32,088 nucleotides of DNA from Bacteroidia bacterium (GCA_025057135.1 JANWXY010000051.1:1-32088), one strand, 5' to 3'. Positions 1-11,219 are shown, counted from the stretch's first letter. The notes: generated by a model from the letters alone, not told the origin. Made by a program: numbers and translations.

Positions 1-1116
1 TGCCTCTGAGGCTCTCTCTATCTCCTCTTCCGTAGTTGGGAGGCCGACCGAGAAGCGCAGCGTTGCTTTCGCCAAGTCAGGGGGGTGGCCCATAGCTAAG
101 AGCACATGAGAGGGCTCTGGTCGGGCTGAGGTACAGGCAGACCCTGTAGCTGCAGCCACCAGAGGCATACGAGCCAAAATATCCGAAGCTTTTATGCCCG
201 GGAAAGAGATGCTCAAAGTATTTGGAAGGCGTGGTGCAGATGCTCCATTTACCATAGAGAGGGGATAAGCAGCCCGAAGGTTAGCCTCAAGTTTGTCGCG
301 CAGAGCAGCTTGCCTATTGTACTCTGTGGGCAGCCTTTGGAGGGATAGCTCAAATGCTTTACTCATCCCTACAATCAATGGTACAGGTAGCGTGCCGCTG
401 CGAAGGCCTCTTTCATGTCCTCCCCCAAAAATCAGTGGCTTCAGAGTCACTCTCGGGGCCCGGCGCTTTACATAGAGAGCCCCGATGCCCTTCGGTCCAT
501 AGAACTTATGCGCTGAGAGCACAGCCATATCCACGTCCAGCTCTACCAGTGTAAAAGGAATTTTCCCCACTGCCTGAGTCGTATCGCACAGAAATAGAGC
601 GCCTGCTTCATGAGCTATTGTGGTCAGCTCTCGTATGGGCTGAATAACGCCGGTCTCGTTATTGGCGAGCATTACCACGACCAGCAGAGTATCTGAGCGC
701 AGAGCGCCTCTAAGCTGATCTGGCGAAATAAGTCCCGCTTTGTCTACCGGGAGGGTCTCTATGGTCCAGCCCCATTCAGAGAGAATACTGAGCGGATCGA
801 GAACGGCTTTGTGTTCCGTCGCAGATACAAGAATATGTCGCCGGGCAGAGGACTCGTATGCTTTGGCTAAACCGAAAATGGCCAGATTGAGCGCCTCAGT
901 AGCCCCACTAGTGAATATGATCTCTTGCGAGCTGACCCCCAAGCCGCTGGCTAAGTTTTGACGGGCGGCTTCTACGGCATCCAGGGCCTCTTTCCCCCAC
1001 AAATGAGGACTGGCTGGATTGCCGAAAAGGTGCATAAAGTAGGGACGCATCGCCTCCCATACTTCGGGAAGTACGGGGGTTGTGGCGTTATAGTCCAGAT
1101 ATATCCCCTGAGGCAT
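1..1116 (-). CDS. Cysteine desulfurase, NifS/IscS class (3' end cut by window)
   Basis: This PLP enzyme takes sulfur from L-cysteine as a persulfide for Fe-S clusters or tRNA thiolation. The 372 visible codons begin MPQGIYLDYNATTPV and show the usual signatures in order: the SATEHKAVL histidine region, NNETG, DTTQAVGK, the PLP lysine in SAHKFYGPKG (K204) and the persulfide cysteine in GSACTSARPEPS (C328). The short loop around C328 fits group I (IscS/NifS) rather than SufS. About 10 to 25 C-terminal residues lie beyond base 1. The ATG overlaps the TAA of the upstream coiled-coil gene by one base (TAATG), so it is probably the last visible gene of the Sia-like operon and translationally coupled. 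Whether it serves Fe-S assembly or tRNA modification cannot be told here. Confidence 0.93.
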   Translation of the reverse strand, partial: MPQGIYLDYNATTPVLPEVWEAMRPYFMHLFGNPASPHLWGKEALDAVEAARQNLASGLGVSSQEIIFTSGATEALNLAIFGLAKAYESSARRHILVSATEHKAVLDPLSILSEWGWTIETLPVDKAGLISPDQLRGALRSDTLLVVVMLANNETGVIQPIRELTTIAHEAGALFLCDTTQAVGKIPFTLVELDVDMAVLSAHKFYGPKGIGALYVKRRAPRVTLKPLIFGGGHERGLRSGTLPVPLIVGMSKAFELSLQRLPTEYNRQAALRDKLEANLRAAYPLSMVNGASAPRLPNTLSISFPGIKASDILARMPLVAAATGSACTSARPEPSHVLLAMGHPPDLAKATLRFSVGLPTTEEEIERASEA

Positions 1117-1658
1117 TATCGGACGGTACGGCTAAGGATAGACTCTACGAGCTCCTCTAATGGTTTGAAGGCAAGCGCTATCAGGGCTTTGAGCCCAAAA
1201 GATATGAAGTTAGCCCACTGGCTGGTAGTACCTGATGCCGTTCGCTCAATGTAGTATTCTATGAGTTCGGTTATCATGAATACTACTATGGCACTAATGC
1301 CGAGTACAGTAAGGGCTTTTCGGCGCCTTTGACTCTCTTGGAGAGCATTTAAGGTTTCTTGAAGTTCGCGGTTTTTTTGGCTGAGCTGTCTATTATACTC
1401 GGCGATTTCTTCATTTTTTCTTGCCAGCTCTTCATTAGCTGCGCGAAGCTTGGCTTGGAGGCGGTCCCCCATCCGGACTAATAGCCGAGCATCTTTGAGT
1501 AGATTGCCGTAGTGCTGCTGTATCTCGCATAGTCTATCTCGTTCGGGAGAGCCTTCGGGGAGCTCTTTTATCCATAGGTTTATTTTTTCCGCTCCCGCCT
1601 CTTCCCGTTCAAAGCTGGCGCTAATCTGAGTGTAGGATTCTCGCCGTTTTTCATTCAT
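1116..1658 (-). CDS. Coiled-coil membrane protein, SiaD-stalk-like
   Basis: The protein has 180 residues and no enzymatic domain that I recognise. Residues 25-66 form an amphipathic helix with the pattern L...Y..LL+.ARLLVRMGDRLQ. From memory, this resembles the segment just before the catalytic domain of SiaD-type diguanylate cyclases and SpoIIE-type phosphatases encoded with SiaB/SiaC. Residues 66-114 are a charged heptad-rich coiled coil. A hydrophobic segment follows at about 115-136, a second weaker one at about 148-166, and then a short basic tail. It overlaps the siaC-like gene by 8 bases and touches the cysteine desulfurase gene. Inference: it is a membrane-anchored docking partner for the SiaC-like protein, in the position where SiaD sits in Pseudomonas. 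The membrane segments and coiled coil are clear; the role is uncertain. Confidence 0.75.
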   Translation of the reverse strand: MNEKRRESYTQISASFEREEAGAEKINLWIKELPEGSPERDRLCEIQQHYGNLLKDARLLVRMGDRLQAKLRAANEELARKNEEIAEYNRQLSQKNRELQETLNALQESQRRRKALTVLGISAIVVFMITELIEYYIERTASGTTSQWANFISFGLKALIALAFKPLEELVESILSRTVR

Positions 1659-2058
1659 CTATCGCTACCAGCTCAAAGGGTACTTTCACAGCGGCTTGAT
1701 AATCCAGTCCAGCATCTTCCATCTCTGTGTCTTCCTGTAAATAAAGCCAGCGTATCTGCATCGCTTGCCCTCGCTCATGTAAAGCTTCAAAGAGCCTGAG
1801 TAAATCCAAAAGAACCTTAGCGGTGCTGGTATTGAAGTATTCTAAGCGTATTTCTATGGTGAGAAGCTTTGAGGAGGGGACGACTTTCTGCGACCAGTTC
1901 TGTACCCATTCAAGTACTGGTCCATAAAACTTCAGTGAGTTTTCAGGGTAAGAATTTCCGCCTATAAAGAAGTAATACGCTTCAGGATCAAATCGTATCT
2001 CAGGTGTAGTGAAGGTGGGCTCTATAATCAGCTTTTCTGAGGTCGTCAGGTCACTCAT
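1651..2058 (-). CDS. SiaC-family regulatory phosphoprotein (DUF1987)
   Basis: A cytosolic protein of 135 residues with the family's hallmarks: TPEIRFDPEAYYFFIGG near the N-terminus, then SYPENSLKFYGPVLEW at 36-51 and EYFNTSTAK at 73-81. In Pseudomonas aeruginosa, SiaC is phosphorylated on a threonine by SiaB and dephosphorylated by SiaA; the unphosphorylated form binds and activates the diguanylate cyclase SiaD. The acceptor here is probably among T77, S78 and T79 of the NTST motif. The gene overlaps the upstream kinase gene by ATGA and the downstream coiled-coil gene by 8 bases, which suggests coupled synthesis. No SiaA-type phosphatase is visible in the window. Confidence 0.88.
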   Translation of the reverse strand: MSDLTTSEKLIIEPTFTTPEIRFDPEAYYFFIGGNSYPENSLKFYGPVLEWVQNWSQKVVPSSKLLTIEIRLEYFNTSTAKVLLDLLRLFEALHERGQAMQIRWLYLQEDTEMEDAGLDYQAAVKVPFELVAIDE

Positions 2059-2603
2059 ATGTTCAGATGAAAAAAAGTAGCTTTGACGGAAAACCAGCTA
2101 TATTCCCCATCTGCAGGGATGAGCTCGTATTCAAATAGGTCAGACTTGAAAAGCACCTGTACGAGGCCAAGCCCCGCTCCGCCACTGTCTGAAAAAGACC
2201 CTTCTGTCAAGGTATTGTAGTGTAGCGCTTCTAAATCTTTACGAGGCATTTGAGTTAGGTTTTGGAGGTAGGTTTGGAGGAAAAGTTCTTGACTGTAATG
2301 AACCAAATTCCTCGCCTCAAGGATGAATCCCTGGTCTGAACGGCTAAGAGCGAGCAGGGGTGGATATTTCTCGTCGTTAGCGCTGTACCTAATGATATTC
2401 TGAGCTAACTCTATCAGGGAGGATACGATTCGTCGCCGAAGGGGGACACGCACAGCTTCCTTCTGAAGAGCTTTGTCTATGTTATGGACAAAATGAGATA
2501 GAACCTCCATGTCTAAAACTCCCTCATGCCTAAATAGAAGGCGATGTTCGTATGATACGGTCATGGGGTACCCTCTTAGCAAAGGTACAAAAATTTTAGT
2601 CAT
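2055..2603 (-). CDS. SiaB-family protein kinase (DUF6272, GHKL-type ATPase)
   Basis: A protein of 182 residues with a GHKL ATPase fold. The N-box is E65-LAQ-N69 followed by IIRYSAN, and the glycine lid is GGAGLGL at 141-147, preceded by EGSFSDS. The length and layout fit SiaB kinases, which phosphorylate the partner SiaC. The start used forms an ATGA overlap with the upstream propeller gene. A second Met at residue 14 (MTVSYEHRLLF) is an alternative start that would give a more typical length. The stop overlaps the siaC-like start by ATGA. Kinase assignment rests on the pairing with DUF1987 and the ATPase motifs; an RsbW-type anti-sigma factor is less likely because the neighbour is SiaC-like rather than an STAS antagonist. 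Confidence 0.85.
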   Translation of the reverse strand: MTKIFVPLLRGYPMTVSYEHRLLFRHEGVLDMEVLSHFVHNIDKALQKEAVRVPLRRRIVSSLIELAQNIIRYSANDEKYPPLLALSRSDQGFILEARNLVHYSQELFLQTYLQNLTQMPRKDLEALHYNTLTEGSFSDSGGAGLGLVQVLFKSDLFEYELIPADGEYSWFSVKATFFHLNI

Positions 2604-4120
2604 GGTGAGACGCTCATACCATATCCTACCAGAGCAAACTCTCGTACAGCTTCTGTCCGAAACGAGGGAATGCTTAAGATATAAAACTTAGCGGGGGCTC
2701 CAGCTATACCACCCAAGTAATGATGAGGAGGGTCTGTGCCAGCTGTATTTTCATAGGATATAAAGAGCTTCTTACGAATAGGGTCTGTGCCGATACCCCT
2801 CGGCAAATGTCCTGCCCCATAAATATGGGTCAAAACCCGAAGCCTCTCTGCATCTATCACTGCGACAGCTCCAAGCTTATCCCCTTGTAGGAGTGGAGCC
2901 TGAGCTTTTAGACAGGCTACAAAAAGAAGTCCATCTTGATAGGTCATTAGTTTAGGAGCTGCGGCGGTCGGAAGCACAGCAACCAGACTGTCATTTGTCC
3001 GGAGAAATACTCGGACCTCATTGGAAGCATCACAGCTTACGAAGTAATACCGTCCCGAAGGTTCGGCTAAAATCTGATATGGTCCCCATCTCTGGTCAAT
3101 CTGAGGTAAAGTCCCTGGAACTAAGGGTATCTGATGGAAATCTATGAAGCGTTGCCTATCTGGGCTGATTTCCACTTTGGTGATATAATTTCCCGCATTT
3201 GCTGTTACATACGCATAGCGGAAATCAGGCGTTATCCATAGGCCGTGAGGGCGCGCCAAAATCTGTGCGAAAGGATCGTGAAGCGTATCTAAAACCCGCA
3301 TATTCTCTGCATCGAGGAGCGTAAGTTTCGTAGGAGCGACATCTGTGAAGTGCGTGATTATGGCGTATTTTCCATCGGCGCTAAACTCTATATGAGCTGG
3401 GTCTGGTCCGACTTCCACGCGTCCGACTTTCTCATAGTTATCGGTACGATACTTCTCCACGGCAGCACCGGCTATAAGCGTCACATAAAAAAATTTCCTG
3501 TCGGGCGATATTTGAATATAGTGAGGGCTCTCTATCTGTCCGGGGCGTATGCCCACTGGAATTTGACGAAGTAAGTGGTAACTATCTAAGTCAAAAACAG
3601 CTACGACATCACTACCAGAAGCACAAACGAAAGACTTACGGCGGGAGCGTGTCAAAGTCTCTCCCCAGGGCAAGCGTCCATCAGCGGCAGGAGCACCACG
3701 AGCGATCCATGAGCGAAGCACTTCTAACTCCTCCCCTGAGAGGAGATTTTTCCTATCAGATGTAGGGGGAGGGCATGTGGGAGTGCTGATAGGGCCCCAA
3801 GTAGAGTCCGGATTTACCTTCCACAAAAGGTGAGACCACTGGGTATCGTAAGGCACCACAAGCGGAATCTCCCGACTTGGACCATAGAAAAGGCTGTCCC
3901 AGCTGGTAAAATCAAGTTCGCTTGAGGCTGACATAGATGCCGGCATAGGGTGAGCGCTCATTGACGCGGGAGAGTTGTCTCTTTGCCCACTATGGCAGCC
4001 TGCGCATCGCCTAAGCAAAATTTTAGCCACTGGCTCTGGGAAGCCACTCTCCTTTGCTAATGGAGGCGGGTTAATCTCCCGGCAGCTGATGACCACTAAA
4101 AGGATAGCCAGTCGCCACAT
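2600..4120 (-). CDS. Haem c/YncE-like beta-propeller lipoprotein
   Basis: A predicted lipoprotein of 506 residues. The first 12 residues are hydrophobic and end in VISC, a lipobox with lipid-accepting C13. A c-type haem motif CAGCH lies at 39-43, in a region like the cytochrome c domain (PSCyt1 type) found in planctomycete and Bacteroidota proteins; it ends in LSGEELEVLRSWIARGAP. Where that domain usually has Met-Pro-Pro, this protein has Cys116-Pro-Pro. From about 150 to the end, repeats such as SPDRKFFYVTLIAG, SADGKYAIITHF and PSGRYYFVSCDAS describe a YncE/YVTN-type beta-propeller. It should act in the periplasm or at the outer membrane. It is the first gene of the Sia-like operon. Substrate and function are unknown. 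Confidence 0.8.
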   Translation of the reverse strand: MWRLAILLVVISCREINPPPLAKESGFPEPVAKILLRRCAGCHSGQRDNSPASMSAHPMPASMSASSELDFTSWDSLFYGPSREIPLVVPYDTQWSHLLWKVNPDSTWGPISTPTCPPPTSDRKNLLSGEELEVLRSWIARGAPAADGRLPWGETLTRSRRKSFVCASGSDVVAVFDLDSYHLLRQIPVGIRPGQIESPHYIQISPDRKFFYVTLIAGAAVEKYRTDNYEKVGRVEVGPDPAHIEFSADGKYAIITHFTDVAPTKLTLLDAENMRVLDTLHDPFAQILARPHGLWITPDFRYAYVTANAGNYITKVEISPDRQRFIDFHQIPLVPGTLPQIDQRWGPYQILAEPSGRYYFVSCDASNEVRVFLRTNDSLVAVLPTAAAPKLMTYQDGLLFVACLKAQAPLLQGDKLGAVAVIDAERLRVLTHIYGAGHLPRGIGTDPIRKKLFISYENTAGTDPPHHYLGGIAGAPAKFYILSIPSFRTEAVREFALVGYGMSVSP

Positions 4121-9039: not shown

Positions 9040-9174
9040 CCCACTTACTAATACAGGTTCCTCGCTAACTTGGACTGCCTTCCCTGCGGTTAGGGCCCTG
9101 CGCTGAGGTAGAAAGGGACACGCTGGGGTGGGGGGTAATCAGAGCTAATCTGGCTTACAGCGCTACGGCTTCTC
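9040..9174. other. Intergenic region between convergent prpB and prmC
   Basis: 135 bases lie between two genes that end towards each other. I find no open reading frame, tRNA or clear stem-loop with a T-run, so transcription termination here is not explained by a recognisable intrinsic terminator. Confidence 0.5.
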
Positions 9175-10056
9175 TTAGGGAGGGGAGAGATGTCTAATTT
9201 TCGCCTCTATCCAGCGCAGCCGCTCTTGACTATCCTTGTAGAGTGCAGTGTGCAATCCATAGGCTTCCCATAATGAGGCTACGGCTTCTGCGTCGGGAGG
9301 GAAAAGTTCGGCAGCTATGATGCCGCCGGGCGATAGGTGTTTAGTCGCCATCTCTGCCAGTTTTTCATAAAGAGACAATCCCGAGCAAAAAATAGCATCA
9401 GGCGGCTCGTATAGTCTGACATTCAAGCCTGTCTCCGCATAGTTTATCCACGGCACATATGGCGGATTACACACGATGAGATCCCATTTATGAGGAAAGT
9501 AGGTAGGTAAAGGGGATGCACCAAAGGTTACTTGTTCTACACGGATAGAGCAGCTATTCAGAAAGGCATTTTTGCGAGCAAGATTTACAGCTTTGGGGCT
9601 TTTGTCTATCGCATAAACCATAGAATATGGAAACTCTTTGGCAAAAAATATAGCCAACGCCCCGGACCCTGTGCCTATGTCTAAAATAGTCTTCGGAGGA
9701 CTTTTGCTCAGCATTTGTCTCAGTCTGTAAGCCCATTCTTCTGTTTCTGGACGAGGGATAAATACACCAGGAGTGATTTCCAGTCGTATTGAGCCGAAGG
9801 CTACTTCTCCAATGATATAGGCGAGTGGCTCATGACGTAGAAGTCGGGCTATGGCGTTTTCCCAACGAGGGAGTAGCTCTTCTGGGAAAGGTGCTTGCCC
9901 ACTTGAAGCCAGCCACACTTTTGGCCATTCGGGTATAAAGTGGCTAAATAGAGCCCTTATGATGGACTCTGACTCGCTCAGGGAATATACTTCCCTCAGG
10001 CGATAGATTGCTTGCTTGCGCAGCTCTGCCAGAGAGATTATCGGCTTGCCACCCAC
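9175..10056 (-). CDS. prmC: Release factor glutamine methyltransferase
   Basis: PrmC (HemK) methylates the glutamine of the GGQ motif in release factors RF1 and RF2. The 293 residues have the N-terminal helical domain, EPLAYIIGEVAFG, the linker FIPRPETEEW, the SAM-binding DIGTGSGALAIFFA and the catalytic NPPYVPW. The NPPY motif together with the PRPET linker distinguishes it from other NPPY methyltransferases. The GTG start at 10056 overlaps the end of the EnvC-like gene by 19 bases. It is the last gene of the six-gene minus-strand unit. In many bacteria prmC follows prfA; here it does not. Confidence 0.93.
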   Translation of the reverse strand: MGGKPIISLAELRKQAIYRLREVYSLSESESIIRALFSHFIPEWPKVWLASSGQAPFPEELLPRWENAIARLLRHEPLAYIIGEVAFGSIRLEITPGVFIPRPETEEWAYRLRQMLSKSPPKTILDIGTGSGALAIFFAKEFPYSMVYAIDKSPKAVNLARKNAFLNSCSIRVEQVTFGASPLPTYFPHKWDLIVCNPPYVPWINYAETGLNVRLYEPPDAIFCSGLSLYEKLAEMATKHLSPGGIIAAELFPPDAEAVASLWEAYGLHTALYKDSQERLRWIEAKIRHLSPP

Positions 10057-11219
10057 TCTAAGGGATTTACGGGCGATTTTCCCTTGTAAATGAGAAAGTA
10101 TAACTGCGGGGGCTCGTTGCCTACATTATTTCCAAGGCGTCCGATTGGGGTAAGGATGCCCACAGATTGCCCTGGCTGCACAAAGGTCTCTTGCAGTCGC
10201 GCATAAACGGTTCGGTAAGGGCCATGCTGAATGATGACGACTTTTCCTTGGCCTGGGATGGTAGTTACAGCTGTGACCTTTCCGGAGAAGACCGCTCGCA
10301 CTTCTGCTTCGGGAGGACCTGCTAAATAGACACCTTGGTTTGTGATTAGCCCTCCGCTTTCATCTTCTACCGTGCCGAAGGGGCTTGTGACGACTAATTT
10401 ATCGGAGGCGATGGGCCACGGCAAATTGCCTTTATTTTGCTCAAATGCTCCTGCCAAGCGGCGTTCAGCTGCTGTGAGGCTAGTTCGCTGCGCTTGCTCT
10501 ACTTCGGAGCGAATCAGCTCATCTATTCGCTTTTGTATTCTCTCGAGCTCTTTCCGCGACTGGGCGAGACGCTGGCGATAAGAAGACTCTTTTTGGCGGA
10601 GAGACCGATATACTTCTTTCTTTTCAAGTTGTGTCTGATGTAAGGCCTGGGTCTGCTGCGCATACAATAAGAGCAGGTTGTTTTTCTCTAACCGGGTTTT
10701 TCTCAGGGCTTCTGAACGGCTCAGGAGGAAGCGCTGCGTACGCTCTATGAGCTGGAGCTGCTCTTGACGAAACCGGGAGACTGCTCGGAAATAAAAGAGT
10801 CGCTCATAGGCTTGGCGGAAAGACTCTGCGCTAAGTACCCATATCCATGGGCTGATATGCCTTTGAGTTTTGTCAAGTAAATACAGCGTCCAAATGTAGT
10901 TCCGATAGAGGCGACGCAGGTCGCGCTCCAAAGCTTGATTAATAGTAGCGAGCTGGTAGATATCCTGTTCCAGCAAATTTAGCTCCTGTTGCAAGCTGTA
11001 TAAGAGCTTCTCTCGCAGGGTGATTTGGCGCCGCAGTAGGGACAGTTCTACTAAGGAGCGCTGCTTTTCCTTTCGCGTTTGCTGTAGAAGCTCCTGAGAT
11101 TGTCTGAGTTCTGCTTCTATTTGCTGGCGGCGGCGCTCTAAACGCTTCCGCTCAGCGGCAAAGTCTGTTACCTTCGTTTGTGCCCATATCAGTCCCCATA
11201 CAATCAGCCAACCCGTCAT
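10038..11219 (-). CDS. EnvC-like murein hydrolase activator (degenerate LytM/M23)
   Basis: A secreted protein of 393 residues. A 14-residue signal peptide ends at WAQ. Residues 20 to about 255 are a long coiled coil rich in Arg, Gln and Leu. From about 285 to the end is a LytM/M23 domain with [28 protein letters not shown] and GQSVG. The zinc ligands of active M23 peptidases are missing: the first HxxxD is NQGVYL, YAHL is YARL and HLHFE is QLYFLI. Such inactive proteins (EnvC, NlpD) bind and activate N-acetylmuramoyl-L-alanine amidases at the division site. The gene overlaps mnmG (ATGA) and prmC. The partner amidase is not in the window. Confidence 0.85.

Follow-up and report, generated by a model that had tools for sequence, protein, structure and literature searches.

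A Sia-type partner switch in a Bacteroidia genome with a putative membrane-hairpin effector in place of an enzyme

What could a Sia partner switch act on when the gene that follows siaB and siaC encodes no enzyme? In Pseudomonas aeruginosa, SiaB phosphorylates SiaC and SiaA reverses this modification, and only unphosphorylated SiaC binds the stalk of SiaD, which makes the active dimer (PMC7647112, PMC8457831). No published function of SiaC (DUF1987) outside Pseudomonas was found in the open-licence literature. The question is raised by a window of 32,088 nucleotides, the whole stretch of DNA analyzed here, which makes up one entire contig of a Bacteroidia assembly of 2.08 Mb (completeness, 98%); the nearest named relatives of the genome are the MAGs SKYB116, SKW77, and KatS3mg026, also of Bacteroidia. 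Five genes on the minus strand each overlap the next. Three of them, for a GHKL kinase, a DUF1987 protein, and a coiled-coil/membrane protein, had been reported in a preliminary description; they lie at the positions given there, and the families of the first two are borne out by Pfam. The features are as follows.

2600-4120, minus strand: beta-propeller protein (YncE/cytochrome-D1-like), 506 aa, with an N-terminal CAGCH haem-type motif
2055-2603, minus strand: siaB-like GHKL protein kinase, 182 aa (PF19788/DUF6272, E 1.2e-19)
1651-2058, minus strand: siaC-like phosphoprotein, 135 aa (PF09345 SiaC, E 1.6e-34)
1116-1658, minus strand: candidate membrane-anchored SiaC receiver (the stalk gene), 180 aa, a coiled coil with two C-terminal hydrophobic segments
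1419-1493, minus strand: putative SiaC-docking motif of the stalk, residues 56-80 (DARLLVRMGDRLQAKLRAANEELAR), aligned to SiaD R74-E98
1116-1325, minus strand: membrane-hairpin module, residues 112-180, with predicted TM1 at about 113-133 (E131), an external loop, and TM2/amphipathic helix (K157, K165-P166)
1-1116, minus strand: class-V aminotransferase (cysteine-desulfurase type), its start codon overlapping the stop of the stalk gene

The overlaps amount to 4 bases between the propeller gene and siaB, 4 bases between siaB and siaC, 8 bases between siaC and the stalk gene, and 1 base between the stalk gene and the aminotransferase gene. The genes flanking the siaBC-stalk unit vary between genera and name no common target of the hairpin. 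The beta-propeller gene with the CAGCH motif (haem c type), upstream of siaB and overlapping it, is retained only within the genus, and a gene of aminotransferase size 3' of the stalk gene is likewise found within the genus only.

The first two proteins of the unit can be assigned with confidence. The SiaB-like protein scores 70.8 bits against PF19788, above the gathering score of 26.6, and 81.7 bits (E 4.4e-23) against the NCBIfam model SiaB_fam_kinase, marginally below the cut-off of 85; it possesses an N-box ELAQN at residue 65 and a glycine-rich GGAGLGL at residue 141. The product of 2055-2603 is thus confirmed as a member of the SiaB family, with predicted kinase activity. The SiaC-like protein scores 118.5 bits against PF09345 (gathering score, 24.5) and 89.2 bits against the SiaC equivalog NF038265, below the cut-off of 150, and is matched to P. 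aeruginosa SiaC (6kko/6k4f/7e6g) by phmmer at 2.7e-18; by these scores it is classed as a SiaC family member and not as the P. aeruginosa equivalog. Its putative phospho-site is N76-T77-S78-T79. At the start of helix 2, Y-F-N76-T77-S78 aligns with Y-L-N67-T68-S69 of P. aeruginosa SiaC, and because the Y-x-N-T-S stretch is in register, T77 probably corresponds to the phospho-acceptor T68. Stand-alone proteins encoded away from siaB in two other loci (L040, 5379-5810, plus strand; L041, 6991-7446, minus strand) resemble SiaC only over their first two thirds, matching positions 1-77 and 1-80 of the 120-position SiaC profile and diverging afterwards.

No SiaA-type PP2C phosphatase is encoded in the operon, and none of the 16 SpoIIE-type phosphatase matches in the genome lies on the window contig, so that the module is locally incomplete. 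One of the 16 adjoins a second Sia cluster on another contig. For a genome of 2.08 Mb, 16 SpoIIE matches and five SiaC proteins are a large set. A domain search of the 98% complete assembly found zero GGDEF domains, and the classical SiaD read-out is therefore absent from the organism as far as the assembly shows.

Neither Pfam nor NCBIfam matched the third protein above cut-off; its sequence is rich in heptads, and many coiled-coil entries of Pfam match it weakly. Of its two hydrophobic segments, the first is strong (residues 115-133, mean hydropathy 2.33), and the second is weak in the window protein (best 19-mer, 1.35) and reaches up to 1.5 in some relatives. An AlphaFold model (mean pLDDT, 84.7) contains helices at 7-32, 38-141, and 146-178, of which the second is predicted to span the stalk and TM1 without a break and the third contains the second hydrophobic segment. 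A Foldseek comparison of this model with the PDB returned no meaningful fold relative (best E, 1.7). The RRRK stretch ahead of TM1 and the basic C-terminus suggest that both ends of the protein are cytoplasmic.

Whether this stalk could receive SiaC was judged from its likeness to SiaD. The motif core, R62-M-G-D-R-L-Q68, corresponds to R-I-S-D-R-Y-Q in SiaD; R66 and Q68 (SiaD R84 and Q86) are invariant across 25 homologues, and D65 and L67 are conserved in at least 90%. A full-length stalk-TM profile searched against the PDB recovered generic coiled coils only and not SiaD, whereas a stalk-only profile built with the wider family placed SiaD third among 177,635 PDB sequences (E 0.26), over its motif 2. 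With a position matrix (PSSM) built from Bacteroidota stalks alone, SiaD excluded, motifs 2 and 1 of SiaD were outscored by just 11 and 12, respectively, of 100,000 of their own shuffles, and 35 of 134,001 sequence windows from the proteins collected here reached the motif 2 score, all but about 3 of them from the stalk family. With an HMM from a broader stalk set, motif 2 was exceeded by 1 of 19,904 shuffles and motif 1 by 83 of 19,731. Alignment of the stalk with SiaD by hhalign gave the same register as the profile search (probability 13%, P 0.0021). The match is short, and scores of this size would carry little weight in a blind search but are good where the target had been chosen beforehand.

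The SiaD positions that contact SiaC, as named in PMC8457831, were used to tabulate SiaC/stalk pairs. The contact between SiaC E110 and stalk R84 is retained as Asp-Arg in hairpin-type pairs, that between SiaC D79 and stalk R74 becomes Arg facing Asp, Glu, Gln, or Thr, and that between SiaC D114 and stalk K77 is lost on both sides. The SiaC interface residues are nearly invariant within each clade, the charge swap being a single clade-level difference from Pseudomonas, and the pattern is consistent with a retained SiaC-stalk interface. S82 of SiaD, which bonds T68, is G64 in the window protein and Ser in several relatives, and the window stalk contains one clear docking motif versus two in SiaD. 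The resemblance of the segment to a Sia effector stalk, suspected in the preliminary description, is thus upheld by the shuffle tests and the PDB ranking, and the presence of a SiaD-type docking motif, a putative SiaC-binding site, in the third protein is confirmed at the level of sequence. A PAS-SpoIIE phosphatase with a SiaA-like catalytic domain (L061, 3751-5496, plus strand) also scores 12.0 on the stalk matrix at residues 169-193, a SiaD-like score; this motif-like stretch, which has no independent support, may be a chance match.

A gene-neighborhood survey collected 27 stalk-hairpin loci, 11 from the genus, 1 from the family, 1 from the order, 13 from other Bacteroidia (10 genomes), and 1 from another class. 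The stalk-hairpin gene lies directly 3' of siaC, with siaB preceding, in 23 of the 27 (the window and 22 others), which bears out the expected conservation next to siaBC in relatives. At one exception (L042), siaBC is missing from the contig; the other three (L113, L115, and L120, from three genomes of one genus) are extra copies directly after the gene for a PD40-OmpA envelope protein, and each of these genomes holds another copy next to siaBC. Across 295 Bacteroidia genomes, the 49 strong stalk matches are all short ORFs of 141-265 residues, and all of those that were inspected end in membrane segments. The adjoining siaC in 23 of 27 loci and the lack of GGDEF in the genome indicate that the window stalk gene is not a truncated enzyme effector, and the lack of any Pfam match in the protein agrees with the earlier statement that no enzyme domain follows the stalk. 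A Sia effector without an enzyme is therefore well supported, on the basis of sequence and synteny. A clear stalk was found in 21 of the 295 genomes and SiaC in 173, which indicates that the stalk is one partner of SiaC among several.

The membrane part itself proved to be more than the "only membrane" of the preliminary description: no enzyme is present, as stated there, but the tail is a conserved module that occurs on other proteins. Matches to the final 70 residues of the protein are found at the C-terminus of response-regulator (REC) proteins (L049, E 3e-16 in a local search; L144, E 3.5e-11), of TPR proteins (L101, L102, L103, L138/L141, and L139; E 1e-11 to 6e-6), and of a Reg_prop/Y_Y_Y (two-component propeller) protein (L104, E 1.4e-5), with weaker matches to the TPR hairpins of L105-L111 (E 2e-5 to 2e-3). 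In L107 (5463-10266, minus strand), three tandem TPR proteins have hairpin ends similar to that of the window protein, and L105, L106, and L108-L111 each encode a single such protein. In several architectures of this kind, a kinase, phosphatase, or DNA-binding domain is usual at the place taken by the hairpin. The hairpin has no Pfam entry, and a tail-only profile matched few genomes across the phylum, the module not being widespread at that threshold. Among congeners, mean amino acid identity is 0.84 for TM1, 0.82 for TM2, and 0.79 for the docking motif, with low dN, and E131, K157, K165, and P166 are invariant in the homologue alignment; these values point to strong purifying selection on the hairpin. 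Its presence on REC, TPR, and propeller proteins argues for a portable membrane module and not a random anchor.

The stalk, too, is found in other settings. In another class of the phylum, it is fused to enzymes, usually directly after siaB-siaC: to PP2C/SpoIIE phosphatase domains in L146, L147, L148, L149, and L151, to HisKA-HATPase domains in L150 and L161 (also in L159 and L160, where siaBC is not close by), and to a class III nucleotide cyclase in L157 (1381-2451, plus strand; PF00211, E 1e-64), directly after siaB-siaC. A further match, L184, was rejected as a probable flavoprotein false positive. Read from these architectures, the stalk is a swappable, predicted receiver of SiaC whose outputs are of five kinds or more, counting the GGDEF domain of SiaD and the membrane ends. 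Two other operons contain the stalk gene together with a phosphatase. In L044, the order is a propeller-SpoIIE protein, siaB, siaC, and the stalk gene. In L140, the genes for SiaC and the stalk-hairpin protein come after one for a protein with REC, SpoIIE, and SiaB domains, and behind them lie flagellar genes, among which a rod protein, fliF, and fliI were identified; phosphatase, kinase, phosphoprotein, and membrane effector thus stand in one row. The combination of REC, SpoIIE, and SiaB domains in one protein occurs at 9162-11039 on the minus strand of that locus.

The second Sia cluster of the genome (L039, contig C44, 4837-12363) consists of genes for CheR, CheB, a PEBP-family protein, a PAS/GAF-SpoIIE protein, SiaB, SiaC, SiaB, SiaC, and two stalk proteins. 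These stalk proteins are short and have a single C-terminal TM, different in kind from the window hairpin. The SiaBCBC-stalk part is kept within the genus and also present in distant Bacteroidia (L055, L128-L131, and L135). Two unrelated membrane ends on a Sia stalk in one genome suggest that membrane effectors are a theme in the class, and the single-TM type argues that anchoring may suffice for that type.

A possible mechanism can be proposed from these observations. SiaB would phosphorylate SiaC on T77, and a SpoIIE phosphatase encoded elsewhere in the genome would remove the phosphate. Unphosphorylated SiaC could then dock on the third protein at residues 56-80, in the way that it binds the stalk of SiaD, and hold two stalk copies in a parallel coiled coil, and this docking may set the dimer state or the helix register of the two-helix membrane hairpin, which would be the output module. 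Transmission to the hairpin is suggested by the predicted stalk helix, which runs unbroken into TM1. We consider it probable that the locus encodes a Sia-type partner switch with a membrane-protein effector of this kind, in which docking on the stalk is passed to an output hairpin. Of the earlier proposal of a Sia module that signals at the membrane without an output enzyme, the enzyme-free effector stands, and action at the membrane, put forward there as recruitment or remodelling, is the part that we infer.

The hairpin could instead be a plain anchor, the protein serving as a dock that keeps unphosphorylated SiaC at the membrane or withdraws it from another partner, with no change passed into the membrane part. 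This would agree with the absence of an enzymatic domain and with the several SiaC paralogues of this genome and with its second type of stalk protein, which has one unrelated TM (L039). However, conservation of TM1 and TM2 is no lower than that of the docking motif (0.84 and 0.82 vs 0.79), four hairpin residues (E131, K157, K165, and P166) are invariant, and an arbitrary anchor would not need a hairpin common to REC, TPR, and propeller proteins; we therefore regard this account as unlikely, although it is the strongest of the alternatives. A role on the input side, for example as a scaffold to deliver SiaC to a membrane phosphatase of the SpoIIE type, with the proteins of L146-L149 as equivalents of SiaA, appears more doubtful still. 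A SiaC stalk is indeed joined directly to PP2C after siaB-siaC in another family, and in P. aeruginosa it is the phosphatase SiaA that acts on SiaC (PMC7647112), but the stalk-hairpin operons of L044 and L140 possess a separate SpoIIE phosphatase, and on the same stalk there are also histidine kinase and cyclase domains, which look like outputs.

Least probable of all is that the similarity of the stalk reflects generic convergence of coiled coils and that the third gene has no part in SiaC binding. The heptad-rich sequence, its weak likeness to many coiled coils in Pfam, and an E-value for SiaD of just 0.26 in the PDB profile search would fit such convergence; against it stand the operon conserved in 23 of 27 loci, R66 and Q68 invariant at SiaD contact positions, the shuffle tests with the PSSM and the HMM, and the enzymes to which this stalk is fused in siaBC operons.

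If the preferred reading of a SiaC-driven membrane effector is extended, the Sia stalk may be a general SiaC receiver that is plugged into GGDEF, PP2C, histidine kinase, class III cyclase, or hairpin outputs, and the hairpin a portable, undescribed output domain driven by REC, TPR, propeller, or Sia inputs; we advance this wider view tentatively, as a possibility that falls somewhat short of an even chance. Hitherto, SiaC has been associated with a single effector, in a single organism, and the receiver motif described here would link it to several outputs and supplies a testable rule for finding SiaC effectors. SiaC-family proteins occur in 173 of 295 Bacteroidia genomes, and the motif opens their role in Bacteroidota to direct tests. 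The membrane hairpin is a candidate for an output domain, and the Sia switch may be a more general signalling part than previously known.

Compared with the SiaABCD system of P. aeruginosa (PMC7647112, PMC8457831), the window module shares a SiaB-family kinase, a SiaC with an N-T-S phospho-site, the gene order siaB-siaC-effector, and an effector after siaC whose helical stalk contains an R-I/M-S/G-D-R-x-Q docking motif. In contrast, its effector has no GGDEF domain and ends in a membrane hairpin, the genome encodes no c-di-GMP cyclase, and the phosphatase gene lies outside the operon, although it is present in the operons of the relatives L044 and L140. The diguanylate cyclase SiaD (PDB 7e6g) is matched, by sequence and prediction, in the docking motif and the long stalk helix. 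Unlike SiaD, the window protein is predicted to be membrane-bound, has no catalytic domain, and differs in its N-terminal part. The STAS-domain partner switches SpoIIAB/SpoIIAA and RsbW/RsbV follow a logic of GHKL kinase, small phosphoprotein, and PP2C phosphatase that the Sia system resembles; SiaC, however, is only structurally related to STAS, once phosphorylated it no longer binds an effector stalk, and the window system shows no sigma factor. Finally, Bacteroidota TPR proteins that resemble the sensory half of FimS (NF053520) share the linker and/or the membrane hairpin with the window protein (L101-L103 and L106), whereas they possess a TPR input and no SiaC stalk and are without the kinase domain of FimS.
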